Shown one piece after another: positions 5,504 through 44,106 of a stretch of DNA of 57,120 nucleotides. The DNA comes from Gemmatimonadota bacterium (GTDB taxonomy: Bacteria; Gemmatimonadota; Gemmatimonadetes; Gemmatimonadales; Gemmatimonadaceae): positions 3,723 to 60,842 of the forward strand of contig PMYN01000033.1 in assembly GCA_003171215.1 (NCBI GenBank), written 5' to 3'. A model generated the notes under the pieces. The model did not search any database. It saw nothing but the letters and a program-made list of their open reading frames with translations, and had not been told where the DNA came from. Position numbers and translations under genes: made by a program. Every line of letters begins with the position of its first letter. The first letter of the stretch is position 1.

Positions 5504-6355
5504 ATGGCGATCGAGCATGTTTCCGATACGGCGCGATGGGTGGCCGTCTATCGCGCGATGGAGACGGAGCGGCCGGACGCGATCTTCACGGATCCGTTCG
5601 CGCGGCGCCTCGCAGGCGAACGCGGCCAGGCGATCGTCGATGAGGTCACGCAGGGCCGGTCGATGGCGTGGGCGATGATCACGCGAACAGCGGTGTTCGA
5701 CGAGATGATCCTCGACCTCATCAAGCGCGAGAAGGTGGATCTCGTCGTGAACCTCGCGTGCGGGCTCGATGCACGCGCGTGGCGTCTCGACGTGCCGCGG
5801 GAACTGCGCTGGGTGGATGTCGATTTTCCGGTGATGATCGACTACAAGACGGAGATCCTGAAGAACGAGCGCCCCGTCTGCCGCTACGAGGCGATCGCCG
5901 TCGACCTCACGGACGATGGCGCCCGCTCGGCGCTTTTCGCGCGGATCGGAGCCGACGCCCAGCGCGCGCTCGTGATATCCGAAGGACTGCTCATCTATCT
6001 CACCCCCGAGCAGGTGAGCACGCTTGCCCGCGACCTGCACTCACAGTCGTCCTTTCGCTGGTGGCTGATCGATCTCGCGCACCCGCAGTTGCTGAAGATG
6101 ATGACGAAAATGTGGGGCGGAAGCGTATCCGGCGGGAACGCACCGTTTCTGTTCGGGCCGGAGGAGGGAACCGGGTTCTTTCTTCCGCTCGGCTGGCGCG
6201 AAACTTCCTTTCGCTCGCAGGGGGACGAAGCGCGGCGCCTCAACCGGGAAATGCGCGGCATGTGGATCTGGCGCTGGATGAGCATCTTCTACTCGAAGAA
6301 ACAACGCGAAACATGGCGCAGGTTTGCCGGCTACGTGATGTTCGAACGCACTTAG
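5504..6355 (+). CDS. Class I SAM-dependent methyltransferase, leucine carboxyl methyltransferase (PPM1/LCMT) type
   Basis: 283 aa, ATG 5504 preceded by GGGGAGGGA at 5491-5499. The N-terminal FTDPFARRLAG segment and the SAM-binding LVVNLACGLDARAWRL (about residues 80-95) are hallmarks of the LCM/Omp-type methyltransferases, which include polyketide and mycobacterial O-methyltransferases. The acidic residue in RWVDVDFP would contact the ribose, and VISEGLLIYL is the usual post-I motif of this family. Cytoplasmic. The substrate is unknown. It lies 22 bases after the LpxR-like gene and 13 bases before the cyclophilin, so it is probably part of the same operon. Confidence 0.88.
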   Translation: MAIEHVSDTARWVAVYRAMETERPDAIFTDPFARRLAGERGQAIVDEVTQGRSMAWAMITRTAVFDEMILDLIKREKVDLVVNLACGLDARAWRLDVPRELRWVDVDFPVMIDYKTEILKNERPVCRYEAIAVDLTDDGARSALFARIGADAQRALVISEGLLIYLTPEQVSTLARDLHSQSSFRWWLIDLAHPQLLKMMTKMWGGSVSGGNAPFLFGPEEGTGFFLPLGWRETSFRSQGDEARRLNREMRGMWIWRWMSIFYSKKQRETWRRFAGYVMFERT

Positions 6356-6998: not shown

Positions 6999-7002
6999 CG
7001 AC

Positions 7003-7145
7003 AACGGCAACGCTATCAGACGACACCTGTCAGAATACGGCAGCGTCCAGACAACGGCCTCGTTACCGATCAGCGCGCGAATCGGTAACGAGGCCGTTGT
7101 CAGATAGCTGACGTCTGGTGGCTGTCGGTTGAAAGCGTTGCCGTT
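7003..7145. repeat. 143-bp imperfect palindrome between convergent genes
   Basis: The outer arms, 7003-7014 and 7134-7145, are perfect 12-base reverse complements. The inner arms, 7050-7070 and 7081-7101, are perfect 21-base reverse complements around a 10-base loop (CAGCGCGCGA). Between them, scattered matches (CGACA, TGTCAG/CTGAC) suggest that the whole 143 bp was once a single hairpin. It fills the space between a + strand stop at 6998 and a - strand stop at 7171. It could act as a bidirectional terminator, a cruciform, or the relic of a non-autonomous mobile element. No target-site duplication is obvious. Confidence 0.85.
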
Positions 7146-7170
7146 TTCTCCGTTCTCAGAACCTCCGTCA

Positions 7171-27073: not shown

Positions 27074-29395
27074 TCAATTCCGCAGTGGCTTCCCGGTCTC
27101 CAGCATGTACTTGATTCGCGCCTGCGTTTCCTTGGTGCCAAGCAGCTTCAGCGTGGCCTCGCGCTCGAGATCGATGATGTCCTGCTCCGTTGCATCACGC
27201 GGCGGACCGTCGCCGCCGGCGAGCACGTACGCGATCTCGTTTCCGATTCGAACGTCGTGGTCGCTTGCCTGTCCGGCTTCCTTGAACGAGAACAGCGCGT
27301 ATTGCAGGTTGCCGAGCGTTTCGCTGCCCAGCACGCGTATCGTCTTCATCGCGGGCGCGACGTAGTCGGGCGCGAGATCGAGGACGCGCGCCTTCGCATC
27401 GGCGATGAGCGTGTCGCGATTGAACGAGATGCGATCCGCCACGGGGCGAAGGAATCCCATCTTTCGCGCCTCGCTCGCGCTGCCGCTCATCTGTGCCAGC
27501 GCGATGAGCTTGAATGCGCGCTTCGCGGCCTCGAACGGATCGGCATCTTCGTACGGCTTGAGCGCCTCGGTGAAGCGGAAGAGCAGTTCCTTGGTGCCGC
27601 ATCCGCTCGGAATGATTCCGACTCCGACTTCCACCAAGCCCATGTAGAGCTCTGCATGAGCTTGGATGCGATCGGCGTGCAGCGATAATTCCACGCCGCC
27701 GCCGAGCGTGAGGCCGAATGGCGCCGACACCACCGGGAACGGCGCGCGGCGGACGCTCATCACCGCGTCCTGGAACGCCTTGACCGAGGCTTCGATGGCC
27801 TTCCAGTCACCGGCGGCCGCGGCTCCGGCGGCCGCCCCGAGATTGGCGCCTGCGCTGAAGGTGCGCGGGTCGTCGTTGCCGAGCACGAGGCCTGCGTACT
27901 TCCCCTTTGAGACTCGATCGATGGTCTTCGCGAGCATCTCGAGCACGCCGGGTCCGAGCGTGTTCATCTTTCCGCAGAACTCGAGGCAGAGCACGCCGTC
28001 TCCGAGATCGACGCAGCGCGCCTCCTTGTTCTCCTCGAGCACCTTGCCCTGCTGCTCGAGGATCGCGAGCGAGAGCTGTCCGGGAATCGGCGGGAGCGGA
28101 ATGCGGCCCGCGTCGACGGTCGCGATCGTCGTGCCGGTGGGAGTCTGCTCGTAGAACGACTTGCCCGCGCTCTTGAGGAGCGCCGGCTCGTTCTTTCCGG
28201 CCTTTGCGAACTCGGCGCGCAGCCAATCCAAACCCAGCGCGTCCATGACCTTGAACGGCCCGATTTCCCAGCCATAACCCCACTCGGTCGCGCGATCGAC
28301 GGCGGAGAGGTCGTACGCGAGCTGCGGAGTCATCGTGAGGCAGTAGTGCGACTGTTCGACGAGGAGCATGCGCAGGAACGCGCCCTGCTTGCCGCCGAGT
28401 TCCTTGGCCTTGCTCACGCGCTCGGCGCTCGGGAGCTTGAGCAGCGCCTCGATTTCCGGCGTGGAGTAGCGCTCCTGCTTTTCGTACTCGAGGGTCTTCC
28501 AGTTGAGCGTGAGGATGTCCTTGCCCTGCTTGTTGTAGAAGCCCGCCTTGGTCTTGTCGCCGAGGCGGCCCGATTTCACGAGGTCGAGGATCCAGGGGGC
28601 GAGCGCGAAGTCCTCGCCGGTGGCTTCGCTGAGTCCCTTGGTGACGTGCACGAGGACGTCGATCCCGGAGAGATCCCCCGTACGGAACGTGGCCGTTTTC
28701 GCGCGCGCGATGAGAGCGCCGGTGAGCGTGTCCACTTCGCTGATGGTGAGGCCGAACTCCATCATGTACCGGCTGGCGGTTACCATGCCATGCACGCCGA
28801 GGCGATTGGCGACGAAGCCGGGGACATCCTTCGCGATGACGATGCCCTTGCCGAGGATATTCCGTTGAAAGTGTTCTATGGTTTCGAGGACGTCAGGAGC
28901 GGTGTACGGCGTGGGGATGATCTCGAGCAGGTGCATGTAGCGCGGCGGGTTGAAATAGTGCGTGCCGCAGAACTGGCGCCGGAACTTCTCCGTGCGTCCC
29001 TGCAGGAGCACCGACATCGGGATGCCGGACGTGTTCGAGGTGACGATCGCGTTCGGCGCCACGGCCTCGATCTTGGCGAACAGTTCCTGCTTGGGCTTCG
29101 GCTGCTCGATGATGACTTCGACGATCCAGTCGCAGTCGGCGAGGAGTCCGATGTCGTCCTCGGTGTTTCCGGGAGTGACGAGCGCGGCGCGGTCGTTGTC
29201 CATGAAGGACGCCGGCTTGCTCTTGATGGCCTTGAGGAGGCCGTTCTTCGCTGGTGCGGAGCGATCGGGGGACTTGGGGTCGTCGGATCCCGGGATGTCG
29301 AGGAGGACGACCGGGATTCCGGCGGACGCGCAGAGCGCGGCGATTCCGTGGCCCATCACACCGGCGCCGATGACGCCGACTTTGGATATGCGCAT
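27074..29395 (-). CDS. fadN: 3-hydroxyacyl-CoA dehydrogenase / enoyl-CoA hydratase fusion, FadN-like
   Basis: 773 aa from ATG 29395, giving the NAD-binding start MRISKVGVIGAGVMGHG. ATG 29422 is in frame and lies five bases after a TACTAT element, so a leaderless longer form is possible. Domains: NAD-binding 3-hydroxyacyl-CoA dehydrogenase (about 1-190), its C-terminal dimer domains (about 195-420) and an enoyl-CoA hydratase domain (about 470-690) with the two Glu of GLTLGGGVEL and LVEVGVGIIPSG. This order (dehydrogenase first) is that of Bacillus FadN, not of FadB. It carries out the middle steps of fatty-acid beta-oxidation. First gene of the - strand operon. Confidence 0.93.
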   Translation of the reverse strand: MRISKVGVIGAGVMGHGIAALCASAGIPVVLLDIPGSDDPKSPDRSAPAKNGLLKAIKSKPASFMDNDRAALVTPGNTEDDIGLLADCDWIVEVIIEQPKPKQELFAKIEAVAPNAIVTSNTSGIPMSVLLQGRTEKFRRQFCGTHYFNPPRYMHLLEIIPTPYTAPDVLETIEHFQRNILGKGIVIAKDVPGFVANRLGVHGMVTASRYMMEFGLTISEVDTLTGALIARAKTATFRTGDLSGIDVLVHVTKGLSEATGEDFALAPWILDLVKSGRLGDKTKAGFYNKQGKDILTLNWKTLEYEKQERYSTPEIEALLKLPSAERVSKAKELGGKQGAFLRMLLVEQSHYCLTMTPQLAYDLSAVDRATEWGYGWEIGPFKVMDALGLDWLRAEFAKAGKNEPALLKSAGKSFYEQTPTGTTIATVDAGRIPLPPIPGQLSLAILEQQGKVLEENKEARCVDLGDGVLCLEFCGKMNTLGPGVLEMLAKTIDRVSKGKYAGLVLGNDDPRTFSAGANLGAAAGAAAAGDWKAIEASVKAFQDAVMSVRRAPFPVVSAPFGLTLGGGVELSLHADRIQAHAELYMGLVEVGVGIIPSGCGTKELLFRFTEALKPYEDADPFEAAKRAFKLIALAQMSGSASEARKMGFLRPVADRISFNRDTLIADAKARVLDLAPDYVAPAMKTIRVLGSETLGNLQYALFSFKEAGQASDHDVRIGNEIAYVLAGGDGPPRDATEQDIIDLEREATLKLLGTKETQARIKYMLETGKPLRN

Positions 29396-29435: not shown

Positions 29436-29473
29436 TGCTGGCAGGAATGGAGGCAGGGGGGGAGTGGGGAGAT

Positions 29474-29596
29474 CGACCCGATGCAGAGTGCGGAAGAGGA
29501 ATTCGGGTACGGGGGCAAGAGATGAGACGCGAGATCTCGCCACTCGCCGCTTTGTTCCTCCATCCGCATTCCTCTTCCGCACTCCGCATCGGGTCG
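29474..29596. repeat. Inverted repeat, 33-base arms with two mismatches, in a divergent intergenic region
   Basis: Left arm 29474-29506 and right arm 29564-29596 are reverse complements except at two positions. The 57-base spacer contains the palindrome GCGAGATCTCGC. It lies between the fadN-like gene (-) and the M14 gene (+). Possible roles: large leader hairpin, non-coding RNA, or repeat relic. Confidence 0.85.
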
Positions 29597-29668
29597 AAAT
29601 TCCGCATGCCGAATCCTTCTCGTCGCTCCTCGCCAGTTCTGATTACCGTCCCTTCTAACGAGGCTTTG

Positions 29669-41379: not shown

Positions 41380-42822
41380 ATGCCGCAGAGGGCACCGCTG
41401 CAACTGTCCCACGACGAAATGCAGGCCTTGGGCGCACAGGCGCTCAAACTCGTCATACACCACTTCGAGACGAACCGTGAGAATCCGGTGGCAGTGACGC
41501 TGCCGCGCGCACAAACCGAGCGAATGCTACGGACGGCGCTGCCGGAACAAGCTACTCCGGTACGCGAGCTCGTGGACATCCTCGCGCGAGACGTGTTTCC
41601 GAACGCGCTCAAGTCCGACCATCCGCGCTTCTACGCTTTTGTGCCAAGCCCGACGAACTTCGTCAGCGTCATTGGCGATTTGCTGATCAGTGGACACAAT
41701 CTGTTCGCCGGCCACTGGATGGCGGCGTCGGCGGCCGGGCAGATCGAGATCAACGTGATCGATTGGCTGAACGAGCTCGTCGGCTTTCCGAAAGAGGGCG
41801 GCGGCATCCTCGTGAGCGGCGGCTCGATGGCGAACCTGTCGGCCATCGCTGCGGCGCGCGAGTCACGGCTCGGCGGCCCGAACGAGAAGGCGATCGTGTA
41901 CTGCTCGGACCAGACTCACTCGTCGATGGCGAAAGGGCTGCGCATCCTGGGGTTTCGGCCCGGGCAGAAGCGCACGATCGCGACCGATCACGGCCTTCGC
42001 CTCTCGATTCCGGCGCTCGAGGCGGCGATCGCCGAGGATCGCGCGGCTGGGCGCCTGCCGTTTTGTGTGGTCGCGAACGGCGGCACGACGAACACGGGCG
42101 CGGTGGATCCGCTCGGACCTCTCGCCGACGTGTGCGCCCGCGAGAAGCTGTGGCTGCACGTGGACGGAGCGTACGGCGCCGCCGCGGTGATCACCGAGCG
42201 GGGCCGCGCTGCCCTTGCCGGAATGGAGCGCGCCGACTCGATCACGCTCGATCCGCACAAGTGGCTCTTTCAGCCGTACGAACTCGGATGCCTGCTGGTG
42301 CGCGACGCGAGCGTCCTGCAACAGGCGTTCCGCGTGGAGGATGAGGATCACGCGGACTATCTCGAGGACGTCACGCGCCACGTGCAGCACGACGTGAATT
42401 TCTACGAATGCGGCGTGCAGCTCACGCGATCGTTCAAGGCGCTGAAGCTGTGGCTGTCGATGCGGGCGTTCGGGCTGGGCGAGTTCCGGCGAGCGATCGA
42501 GAGCGGGTTCGAGATGGCGGATCACGCCGAGCGGACACTGCGCGCGGCAGGAACGTGGGAAGTCGTCACGCCGTCGCAGATGGGCGTGGTCACGTTCCGG
42601 TGGCGCGACGCGACGAAGACGGATGCGCAGATCGACGCGATCACGCGCGAGACCGTCGATTTGATGCGGGAGGATGGGTACGCGCTGGTGATGTCGACGG
42701 CGCTCAACGGGCGGGCGGTGCTTCGGCTTTGTCCGATCAATCCGGCGACGAACACAGGGGAGATCGAGGAGACTATCGCGAGGCTTGGGCGGTTTTCAGC
42801 GGCGGTTGGCGCGGACGTCTGA
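41380..42822 (+). CDS. PLP-dependent aromatic-L-amino-acid/glutamate-type decarboxylase (group II)
   Basis: 480 aa from ATG 41380; the frame opens at TTG 41323. Group II decarboxylase motifs: VSGGSMANLSA (146-155), His180 of CSDQTHSS stacking on PLP, Asp262 and Ala264 of HVDGAYG, and the Schiff-base Lys294 in LDPHKWLFQPYE. It should decarboxylate an aromatic amino acid or related substrate. It might also be a non-decarboxylating relative, as in aromatic aldehyde synthases, which sequence alone does not settle. It is divergent from the receiver gene, with the start 87 bases from that gene's start. A large palindrome follows the stop. Confidence 0.93.
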   Translation: MPQRAPLQLSHDEMQALGAQALKLVIHHFETNRENPVAVTLPRAQTERMLRTALPEQATPVRELVDILARDVFPNALKSDHPRFYAFVPSPTNFVSVIGDLLISGHNLFAGHWMAASAAGQIEINVIDWLNELVGFPKEGGGILVSGGSMANLSAIAAARESRLGGPNEKAIVYCSDQTHSSMAKGLRILGFRPGQKRTIATDHGLRLSIPALEAAIAEDRAAGRLPFCVVANGGTTNTGAVDPLGPLADVCAREKLWLHVDGAYGAAAVITERGRAALAGMERADSITLDPHKWLFQPYELGCLLVRDASVLQQAFRVEDEDHADYLEDVTRHVQHDVNFYECGVQLTRSFKALKLWLSMRAFGLGEFRRAIESGFEMADHAERTLRAAGTWEVVTPSQMGVVTFRWRDATKTDAQIDAITRETVDLMREDGYALVMSTALNGRAVLRLCPINPATNTGEIEETIARLGRFSAAVGADV

Positions 42823-42831
42823 CTTAAGGAC

Positions 42832-42965
42832 GAGTTAACCCGTTTCTTGTTGGTTGGTTAACTGAAGTAGAAAATTAGCCCAGGCAACGAGGCGCGTGAA
42901 TGCGCTCATTGCCAGGGCTAATTCCTTAACTTCTGTTAACCAACCAACTAAGAACGGGTTAACTC
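42832..42965. repeat. 134-bp palindromic element between convergent genes
   Basis: The left arm (42832-42891) and right arm (42905-42965) are near-perfect reverse complements over about 60 bases, with only a few mismatches and a single-base shift. They surround a 13-base loop. Both arms begin GAGTTAACCCGTT, and the composition is A+T-richer than the surroundings. It occupies the whole gap between the decarboxylase stop (42822) and the - strand propeller stop (42983). It has the same layout as the 143-bp palindrome at 7003-7145, but the two share no obvious sequence. Confidence 0.92.
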
Positions 42966-42982
42966 GCAGTTGCAGTTCTTAG

Positions 42983-44053
42983 CTAGTGCTTGATGGCAAT
43001 GAACCACGCCGCCACCATCGGCCCACGTGGCCCACCCCGTCCGCCGCGCCCAGCCGCCGGTGGCGGTGCATTCGGATCCGGCGCCGGTGCCGGCCCGAAC
43101 TCGGGCTGAAACAGGAATGCCATGTGCTTCACGTCATCCACGGCGATCGTCTTGGCGCCCTTGAAGGTGGGGACCGTCGCGACCGTGGTGTACTTGTCCG
43201 GCGAATCCTCATGCACGACGGTGACCGTGCCGTCGCCCTGGCCGGCGGGGATGTAGATCAACTTCTCGGTCTGGTCCCAGCCGATCGCGTCGACACCGTT
43301 GCCGTTCTTGATCTGCGCGACGACCTTGCCGTTCGTCGCGTCAACGACGACCGATGTGCCGCTGCATCCGGCGAAGAGGCGGTTCGTCTTGCGGTCCATC
43401 GCGATGCCCGTGGGGCCGTCGCAGGGAGCGATGTCCCACGTCGCGATCTTGGTCCACGTCTTGGCGTCGATGACGTCGATCGCATTCTTGTTCTCGATGT
43501 TGATGTAGATCTTGCCCTTGCCGTCGCTCACGCCGCCTTCCGGGGCGTTGCCGCTCAGGACGACCTTGCCCACGACGTCGCCGGTCTTTGCGTTCACAAC
43601 GACCGCCGTTCCGTCGGGCGTGCTGTGGTTGATCGAAAGGATCGTCTTGCTGAAGTCATCGTACATGATGCCGTCGAGGCGATTCACGCCCGCATGGACC
43701 TTCTTGATTAAGTGAAGGTCCTTCAGGTCGAACATCGTCAGCGTGGAATCGCCGCCGTTGGTCGTGAAGCCGAACCCTTCCTTGGACGCGAGTGCGATGC
43801 CGTGCATGCCGGGCGTGTCCGGGATGTCGCCGAGCACTTCGCCCGTGAGTCCGTTGACCACCATCACGTGCGTGCCGCGCGACACGAACACGCGACCCGT
43901 ACCGGGCTCGGCCGTGAGGTAATCGGTGCCGCCCGTACCCTTGATGTCCCATTTCTGGACCGTGAACGTCTGCGCGGACGCCGCGGCCGGGATCGCCAGT
44001 GCAGCGGCGAGAAGCGCCAGGGCCGGCGTCATGCGAGAGGTAATGCGAACCAT
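42983..44053 (-). CDS. YncE-like beta-propeller exported protein
   Basis: 356 aa from ATG 44053 (GAGG upstream; the frame is open to 44098 but that start overlaps a promoter-like element). Signal peptide to residue 27 (ALAIPAAASAQ). YVTN-type propeller: repeated blocks such as GRVFVSRGTHVMVVNGLTGEVLGDIPDTPGMHGIALA, KIYINIENKNAIDVIDAKTW and NRLFAGCSGTSVVVDATNGKVVA. The C-terminus has a short Pro/Gly/Arg tail (PPPAAGRGGRGGPRGP) before the final helix-like residues. Such proteins are surface or periplasmic and of unclear function. It is transcribed alone. Confidence 0.88.
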   Translation of the reverse strand: MVRITSRMTPALALLAAALAIPAAASAQTFTVQKWDIKGTGGTDYLTAEPGTGRVFVSRGTHVMVVNGLTGEVLGDIPDTPGMHGIALASKEGFGFTTNGGDSTLTMFDLKDLHLIKKVHAGVNRLDGIMYDDFSKTILSINHSTPDGTAVVVNAKTGDVVGKVVLSGNAPEGGVSDGKGKIYINIENKNAIDVIDAKTWTKIATWDIAPCDGPTGIAMDRKTNRLFAGCSGTSVVVDATNGKVVAQIKNGNGVDAIGWDQTEKLIYIPAGQGDGTVTVVHEDSPDKYTTVATVPTFKGAKTIAVDDVKHMAFLFQPEFGPAPAPDPNAPPPAAGRGGRGGPRGPMVAAWFIAIKH

Positions 44054-44092
44054 ATCAACCTCGATGGGAGTGGGAGTCGATGCAAACCCGCA

Positions 44093-44106
44093 ACACATAT
44101 AGTACT
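44093..44106 (-). promoter_or_regulatory. TACTATATGTG element upstream of the propeller gene
   Basis: On the - strand TAGTACTATATGTG lies 40 bases upstream of the ATG at 44053 and fits a -10 region (TACTAT). No good -35 is seen. It is one of the recurrent CTATA-type sites. Confidence 0.3.

Follow-up and report, generated by a model that had tools for sequence, protein, structure and literature searches.

Gene-end palindromes of a small group of uncultured Gemmatimonadaceae keep their sites while their arm sequences are replaced

Here we describe family A, a set of palindromes that share a modular build and lie at the ends of genes in near relatives within the Gemmatimonadaceae. Orthologous loci, compared at the sequence level, show fixed sites and a lineage-wise replacement of the arm sequence. 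The hairpins keep their place while a lineage's own version takes over their sequence, a kind of concerted evolution. We propose, with a probability of about 0.6, that these clade-restricted gene-end palindromes are likely terminators whose modules are copied between sites at the DNA level. Palindromic intergenic repeats are usually viewed as mobile elements that land near genes, whereas family A stays in place and has its sequence exchanged, the two arms changing in step.

Results

The window, a stretch of 57,120 nucleotides, contains at 42831-42966 a near-perfect palindrome of 136 bp, as located by inverted-repeat analysis and a gapped scan. The original prediction, a near-perfect palindrome of 134 bp, was therefore correct in kind and short by one base at each end. 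It had also placed the palindrome between two convergent genes, and the gap that the palindrome fills is indeed bounded by two facing stop codons, at 42820-42822 (+) and 42983-42985 (-). The features of the region are:

41419..42822, + strand: pyridoxal-dependent decarboxylase gene (PF00282), 3′ end toward the palindrome
42831..42966, no strand: whole palindrome, family A, outer type O1
42831..42868, + strand: left outer arm, with the CGAG end, the O1 module CCCGTTTCTTGTTGG and the GTTGGTTAAC core
42873..42923, no strand: inner core hairpin AATTAGCCC..GGGCTAATT with an A/T-rich tract on each side, terminator-like (T-richness judged across the family)
42929..42966, - strand: right outer arm, the reverse complement of the left outer arm
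42983..44098, - strand: gene for a 371-aa beta-propeller-like protein, 3′ end toward the palindrome

The outer arms (42831-42868 and 42929-42966) pair over 38 nt and the inner arms (42873-42891 and 42905-42923) over 19 nt, each with 89% complementarity. The inner arms are separated by 13 nt, the loop length first reported, and both ends (CGAGTTAACCCGTT / AACGGGTTAACTCG) likewise read as before. GC content is 46.3% in the palindrome and 64.7% in the window, in agreement with the lower GC claimed relative to the surroundings. The predicted RNA fold of the palindrome has an energy of -84.8 kcal/mol, whereas shuffled sequences average -37.4 (z -12.1; 0 of 200 shuffles), and its DNA fold has a z of -13.3. 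No inverted repeat of comparable score was found in shuffled sequence. An Rfam scan of the palindrome gave nothing above the gathering score, and the sub-threshold matches were mostly microRNA hairpins. The closest orthologs of the 371-aa protein are encoded in uncultured Gemmatimonadetes/Gemmatimonadaceae assemblies.

Searches of the genome and of its relatives, as proposed with the original prediction, recovered many copies in the own genome (G000) and in three relatives (G002, G010 and G014). BLAST returned 24 matches to the palindrome in the G000 assembly (4.14 Mb in 162 contigs), both strands taken together, and we estimate about 20-27 copies; a core motif search revealed additional places beyond these matches. 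Across 61 genomes, matches in the DNA search were confined to the same four. A covariance model (R1), made from 14 family A copies, gave 53 hits in G000, 53 in G002, 26 in G010 and 92 in G014, counts that pool both strands (places being about half as many) and that vary with threshold. The genomes are mostly draft assemblies, one per species. The model had no hits in the other 14 of 18 congeners. Flanking genes are mostly 88-98% identical between G000 and G010 and mostly 73-93% identical between G002 and G014, which marks these four genomes as near relatives; the palindrome locus in other congeners has 69-77% DNA identity. On these searches, family A is restricted to one small group of uncultured Gemmatimonadaceae.

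Since the analysed copies were picked by family similarity, unbiased scans are a fairer gauge of how frequent long palindromes are. Such a scan found 15 intergenic palindromes of comparable score in 400 kb of G000 and 14 in 400 kb of G014, and none in 729 kb of two congeners, G015 (329 kb) and G006 (400 kb).

Copies of family A are mostly 70-165 bp long and are assembled from nearly constant CGAG...CTCG ends, an outer module, a middle module and an inner core hairpin. Four types of outer module occur (O1 CCCGTTTCTTGTTGG, O2 GTTAACCACTAACTGTTGG, O3 AATCGGTCGTTGGTC and O4 ACTGTTTTCCGTGCGTCGG), the middle module is GGTTAACCAAGG or GGTGTTCTGT, plus variants, and the inner core hairpin is found as several types. 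Read on either strand, the core consists of a GC-rich stem followed by a T-rich tract, with at least 5 T among the 8 bases after the core stem in 60 of the 99 strands scored. Neither the window copy nor its G014 counterpart (L084) gave a site in a strict terminator scan, which we attribute to the pairing of the T tract with the A tract of the opposite arm and to the long stem.

Family A is found predominantly behind genes. Of the 85 copies placed, convergent gaps contain 42, tandem gaps 36 and divergent gaps 3, and the remaining 4 are at contig edges, both neighbours having been read for 81. Genes were called automatically with a simple codon-model caller that had been trained on the window. 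The skew of convergent over divergent gaps (42:3, p = 9e-10) is far from chance, as the two kinds of gap are equally numerous in such genomes (44 convergent and 42 divergent in 400 kb of G014). In tandem gaps, the copy starts a median of 10 nt downstream of the preceding stop and ends a median of 92 nt upstream of the following start. Transcription terminators and 3′-end caps are placed in this way, and position at the stop codon together with avoidance of divergent gaps is expected of intrinsic terminators.

The sites themselves are largely shared between species. A copy was counted as matched where G014 has a family member in the gap, or downstream of the gene, that is orthologous. By their flanking genes, 14 of 21 G000 copies were matched to a G014 copy, and C95b is a fifteenth; at C95a the left gene alone is shared. 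With 15 of the 21 copies matched in G014, these copies are inherited in place. Counterparts of the window palindrome lie between the same two genes in L084 (G014) and in L085 (the G002:C156 place), both with outer type O2 and not O1.

At three sites (C31, C158a and C124:61k), G000, G014 and G010 each carry different arms, and G010 has type O3 at all three alike. Gapped alignment of G000 with G010, the closest pair of species, at these sites gives 82-92% identity for the 200-bp flanks and 52-61% for the palindromes, and the flank match extends to the CGAG end. At C46, by comparison, the G000 and G010 palindromes are 98% identical, which together with the replaced sites indicates that whole palindromes change site by site. 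The original prediction had overlooked the modular arms and their lineage-specific replacement at fixed sites. Outer type is strongly associated with genome (permutation, 0 of 20,000). In G002 and G014, both mostly O2, similarity is higher among orthologous copies (median 0.93) than among non-orthologous ones (0.84), and descent in place is thereby visible too.

The two arms of a copy nearly always agree in outer type (by tally, 60 of 63 copies in which a type could be given to each arm), and half-swapped copies are rare: C46 of G000 (O1/O2), L220 of G014 (O2/O4) and L246:10178 of G014. Middle modules are often discordant, with m1 on one arm and m2 on the opposite arm, which suggests that exchange sometimes takes a single arm. 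Covariation is strong, with 26 of 75 pairs altered on both sides and a score attained by 0 of 500 shuffles; in a wider set, 16 of 32 pairs covary. Selection on an RNA helix is expected to tolerate G-U pairs better than other mismatches. In a symmetric count of sense-strand mismatches in tandem copies, a modest sample for which one knows the strand that is transcribed, G-U pairs number 85 and A-C pairs 73 (p 0.38), with no wobble excess. From this we infer, with moderate confidence, that arm symmetry is maintained by DNA copying and not by compensatory selection on RNA. The case carries a warning that covariation in a hairpin need not imply selection at the RNA level.

Outgroups give a view of what preceded the long palindromes. 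Behind the same 371-aa gene, in a convergent gap, the congeners G007, G013 and G015 have hairpins of 35-47 bp, about a third the length of family A palindromes. The long palindromes may thus have replaced, or grown from, an ordinary terminator. The bidirectional terminator put forward in the original prediction is supported by the placement, the terminator-like core and these ordinary hairpins at the outgroup site; the strict scan without a site in the window copy speaks against it.

Discussion

The reading that we favour accounts for these observations as follows. RNA from either strand would form a hairpin of about 60 bp whose core resembles a bidirectional intrinsic terminator, and the most likely job of the palindrome would be to end transcription of both flanking genes, to cap the 3′ ends of their mRNAs, or both. 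Sites are inherited, while modules from other palindromes in the same genome would overwrite existing ones, usually on both arms. Exchange may proceed by ectopic gene conversion, perhaps begun by cutting or breakage of the hairpin or by fork stalling, with another palindrome as donor and a conversion tract that probably ends at the common CGAG ends. The outcome is the one read from the sequences: at the same gene ends, each lineage has an arm type that is its own. Homologous recombination could also alter the type at a single site, by bringing in whole alleles from relatives outside the sample.

A bolder version, which we put forward only tentatively, is that a dedicated hairpin-replacement system exists, in which a putative recombinase, or break-induced copying at hairpin tips, overwrites gene-end palindromes. 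Such a system would give long palindromes, one arm at a time or in their entirety, the type then current in the genome. If this were true, terminator hairpins would be mobile cassettes that home into other hairpins, and the clade's several palindrome families would be products of the same system.

The main rival is transposition that displaces an old copy. Here family A would be a palindromic MITE-like element, as YPAL and ERIC are, served by a terminator-targeting transposase, and orthologous sites would have been hit independently or their old copies displaced. We judge this unlikely, although the family is multicopy and clade-restricted, several palindrome families share the same genomes, and areas of dyad symmetry are reported targets of YPAL (PMC2229807). 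As in MITEs, there are terminal inverted repeats, the entire element being one inverted repeat whose CGAG ends are nearly constant. The non-autonomous element raised in the original prediction is supported as regards the many copies in the own genome and three relatives, but not as a classic insertion: no target-site duplication is visible at the ends of the copies read, boundaries are the same, and most copies lie in orthologous gaps. G002 has, behind the C95a gene, a 19-bp gap without a palindrome, which suits transposition. The C95b gap of G010 resembles a deletion remnant rather than a clean empty site, and a search of G010 for the C83 locus did not recover it. The C95a gap and the C95b remnant suggest that copies are also lost, or gained elsewhere.

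The 15 of 21 sites common with G014 tell further against a transposing element. As to an autonomous parent, a DNA search of the own genome (162 contigs, neighbours partly annotated) showed no copy whose ends enclose a transposase. The Y1/RAYT transposase (PF01797) is present in 18 of the 61 searched genomes, all of other genera, and in 0 of the 18 draft genomes of the genus. Mobilisation of family A by RAYT is ruled out as far as the absence of PF01797 from 18 draft genomes allows.

Plain intrinsic terminators, kept by selection for RNA stability and alike, with no exchange among sites, through common descent and compensatory change, would fit the placement at gene 3′ ends, the covariation and the ordinary terminators that outgroups have at the same place, stem-loops at 3′ ends being general in bacteria (PMC1590033). 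However, arm sequences are common to separate loci in one genome and absent from the orthologous loci of close species, and the type-3 sites of G010 weaken this explanation. The roughly threefold length over outgroup hairpins, the lack of a wobble excess and the fact that two congeners have none of these palindromes between their genes in 729 kb also argue against it, and we regard it as improbable. A last alternative is a site that acts as DNA, either a cruciform or a place where proteins bind (nucleoid, replication or domain boundary), and that tolerates gene-end positions. It would agree with the highly stable DNA fold and the high symmetry without wobble bias, but is very improbable, as the hugging of stop codons and the avoidance of divergent gaps indicate transcript ends.

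Loss of SbcD was also considered as a reason for the survival of the palindromes and was rejected: an SbcD-like gene is present in all 41 genomes and is thus without discriminating value.

Several known repeats resemble family A in part. ERIC, Correia/NEMIS, RUP and the Rickettsia palindromic elements (RPEs) are interspersed long stem-loops of 100-170 bp (PMC2229807; PMC2267715), and family A is like them in being long and interspersed. Most of them have short terminal repeats and TA duplications, neither of which is seen in family A at the sites read; RPEs also lie inside genes, and combinatorial arms are a feature of family A. YPAL / RU-2 of Yersinia has target-site duplications of 3-26 bp, and filled and empty sites among close species. 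Compared by description, family A differs in that its sites are largely conserved and the sequence within them is replaced. REP, BIME and REPIN sequences are palindromic, intergenic and less than 20 bp from gene 3′ ends, mostly in convergent and tandem gaps (PMC3733652). REP units, however, are 20-40 bp long with a GTAG or CGTC tag, whereas the window unit is 136 bp with CGAGTTAAC ends, and a constant GTAG or CGTC tag is absent from family A, which sets it outside the REP/BIME units. CGTC REPs are, like family A, without a known transposase.

Bidirectional intrinsic terminators consist of a hairpin amid convergent stops, with A-rich and T-rich tracts flanking a GC-rich core (PMC1590033). Family A has the same convergent-stop hairpin, tracts and core; its stem is much longer, as the original prediction had noted in comparison with a normal terminator, and its shared, modular, multicopy sequence sets it apart. 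The EFAR repeats of Enterococcus faecalis are stem-loops of about 170 bp, presumed bidirectional terminators, with interchangeable parts. As a lead, family A is like them in all three respects: long stem-loops, a supposed role in bidirectional termination and interchangeable parts. We know of no lineage-wise replacement of EFAR at orthologous sites.

In the open-access literature, we found nothing on palindromic repeats in Gemmatimonadota, nothing on the exchange of gene-end hairpins between sites and no earlier description of concerted evolution of such hairpins. The close species available here make the upkeep of repeat symmetry testable, with transposition, gene conversion and RNA selection as the competing accounts.

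Other palindromes in the clade

Family A is one of several palindrome families in these genomes. At 7000-7148 the window has a 149-bp palindrome of family C (AACGGCAACGCT.TCAG-like) that fills the convergent gap 6998/7171; about a dozen loci of this family in the own genome occupy gaps of all three kinds (convergent, tandem and divergent). A 125-bp palindrome of family B (GATGCGGAATGCGGAAGAGGAATTCGG-like) lies at 29473-29597, upstream of the gene 27074-29395(-). Family B has 149 BLAST matches in the own genome, and some copies exceed 300 bp and have repeated modules.

Further long palindrome families occur in G000 and G014 (GACGGCAGACGGCGG, CAACGGCGACGGGTGACGG, AAAAGGGATGGGTTAACGG, GCTCACAGTTC and CGACCCTCTCAGTCGCTTCGCTCC), with loci at L375 13268-13409 and 14866-14978, L381 761-960, L367 5117-5298, L288 4437-4571 and L296 13814-13961; the CGACCCTCTCAGTCGCTTCGCTCC family is found in divergent gaps. 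Another Gemmatimonadota assembly, palsa_1233, has behind its ortholog of the 371-aa gene (L086, about 6105-6200) a palindrome of about 100 bp, GAGAGAGACGAGAGACGAGAGAAACC, which is AG-rich and unlike family A. In G014 and G002, the palindromes L219 4983-5275, L246 5131-5442 and L260 2450-2698 score 40-70 bp into both flanking gene ends, an extension that may reflect arm growth into coding DNA or alignment overrun.
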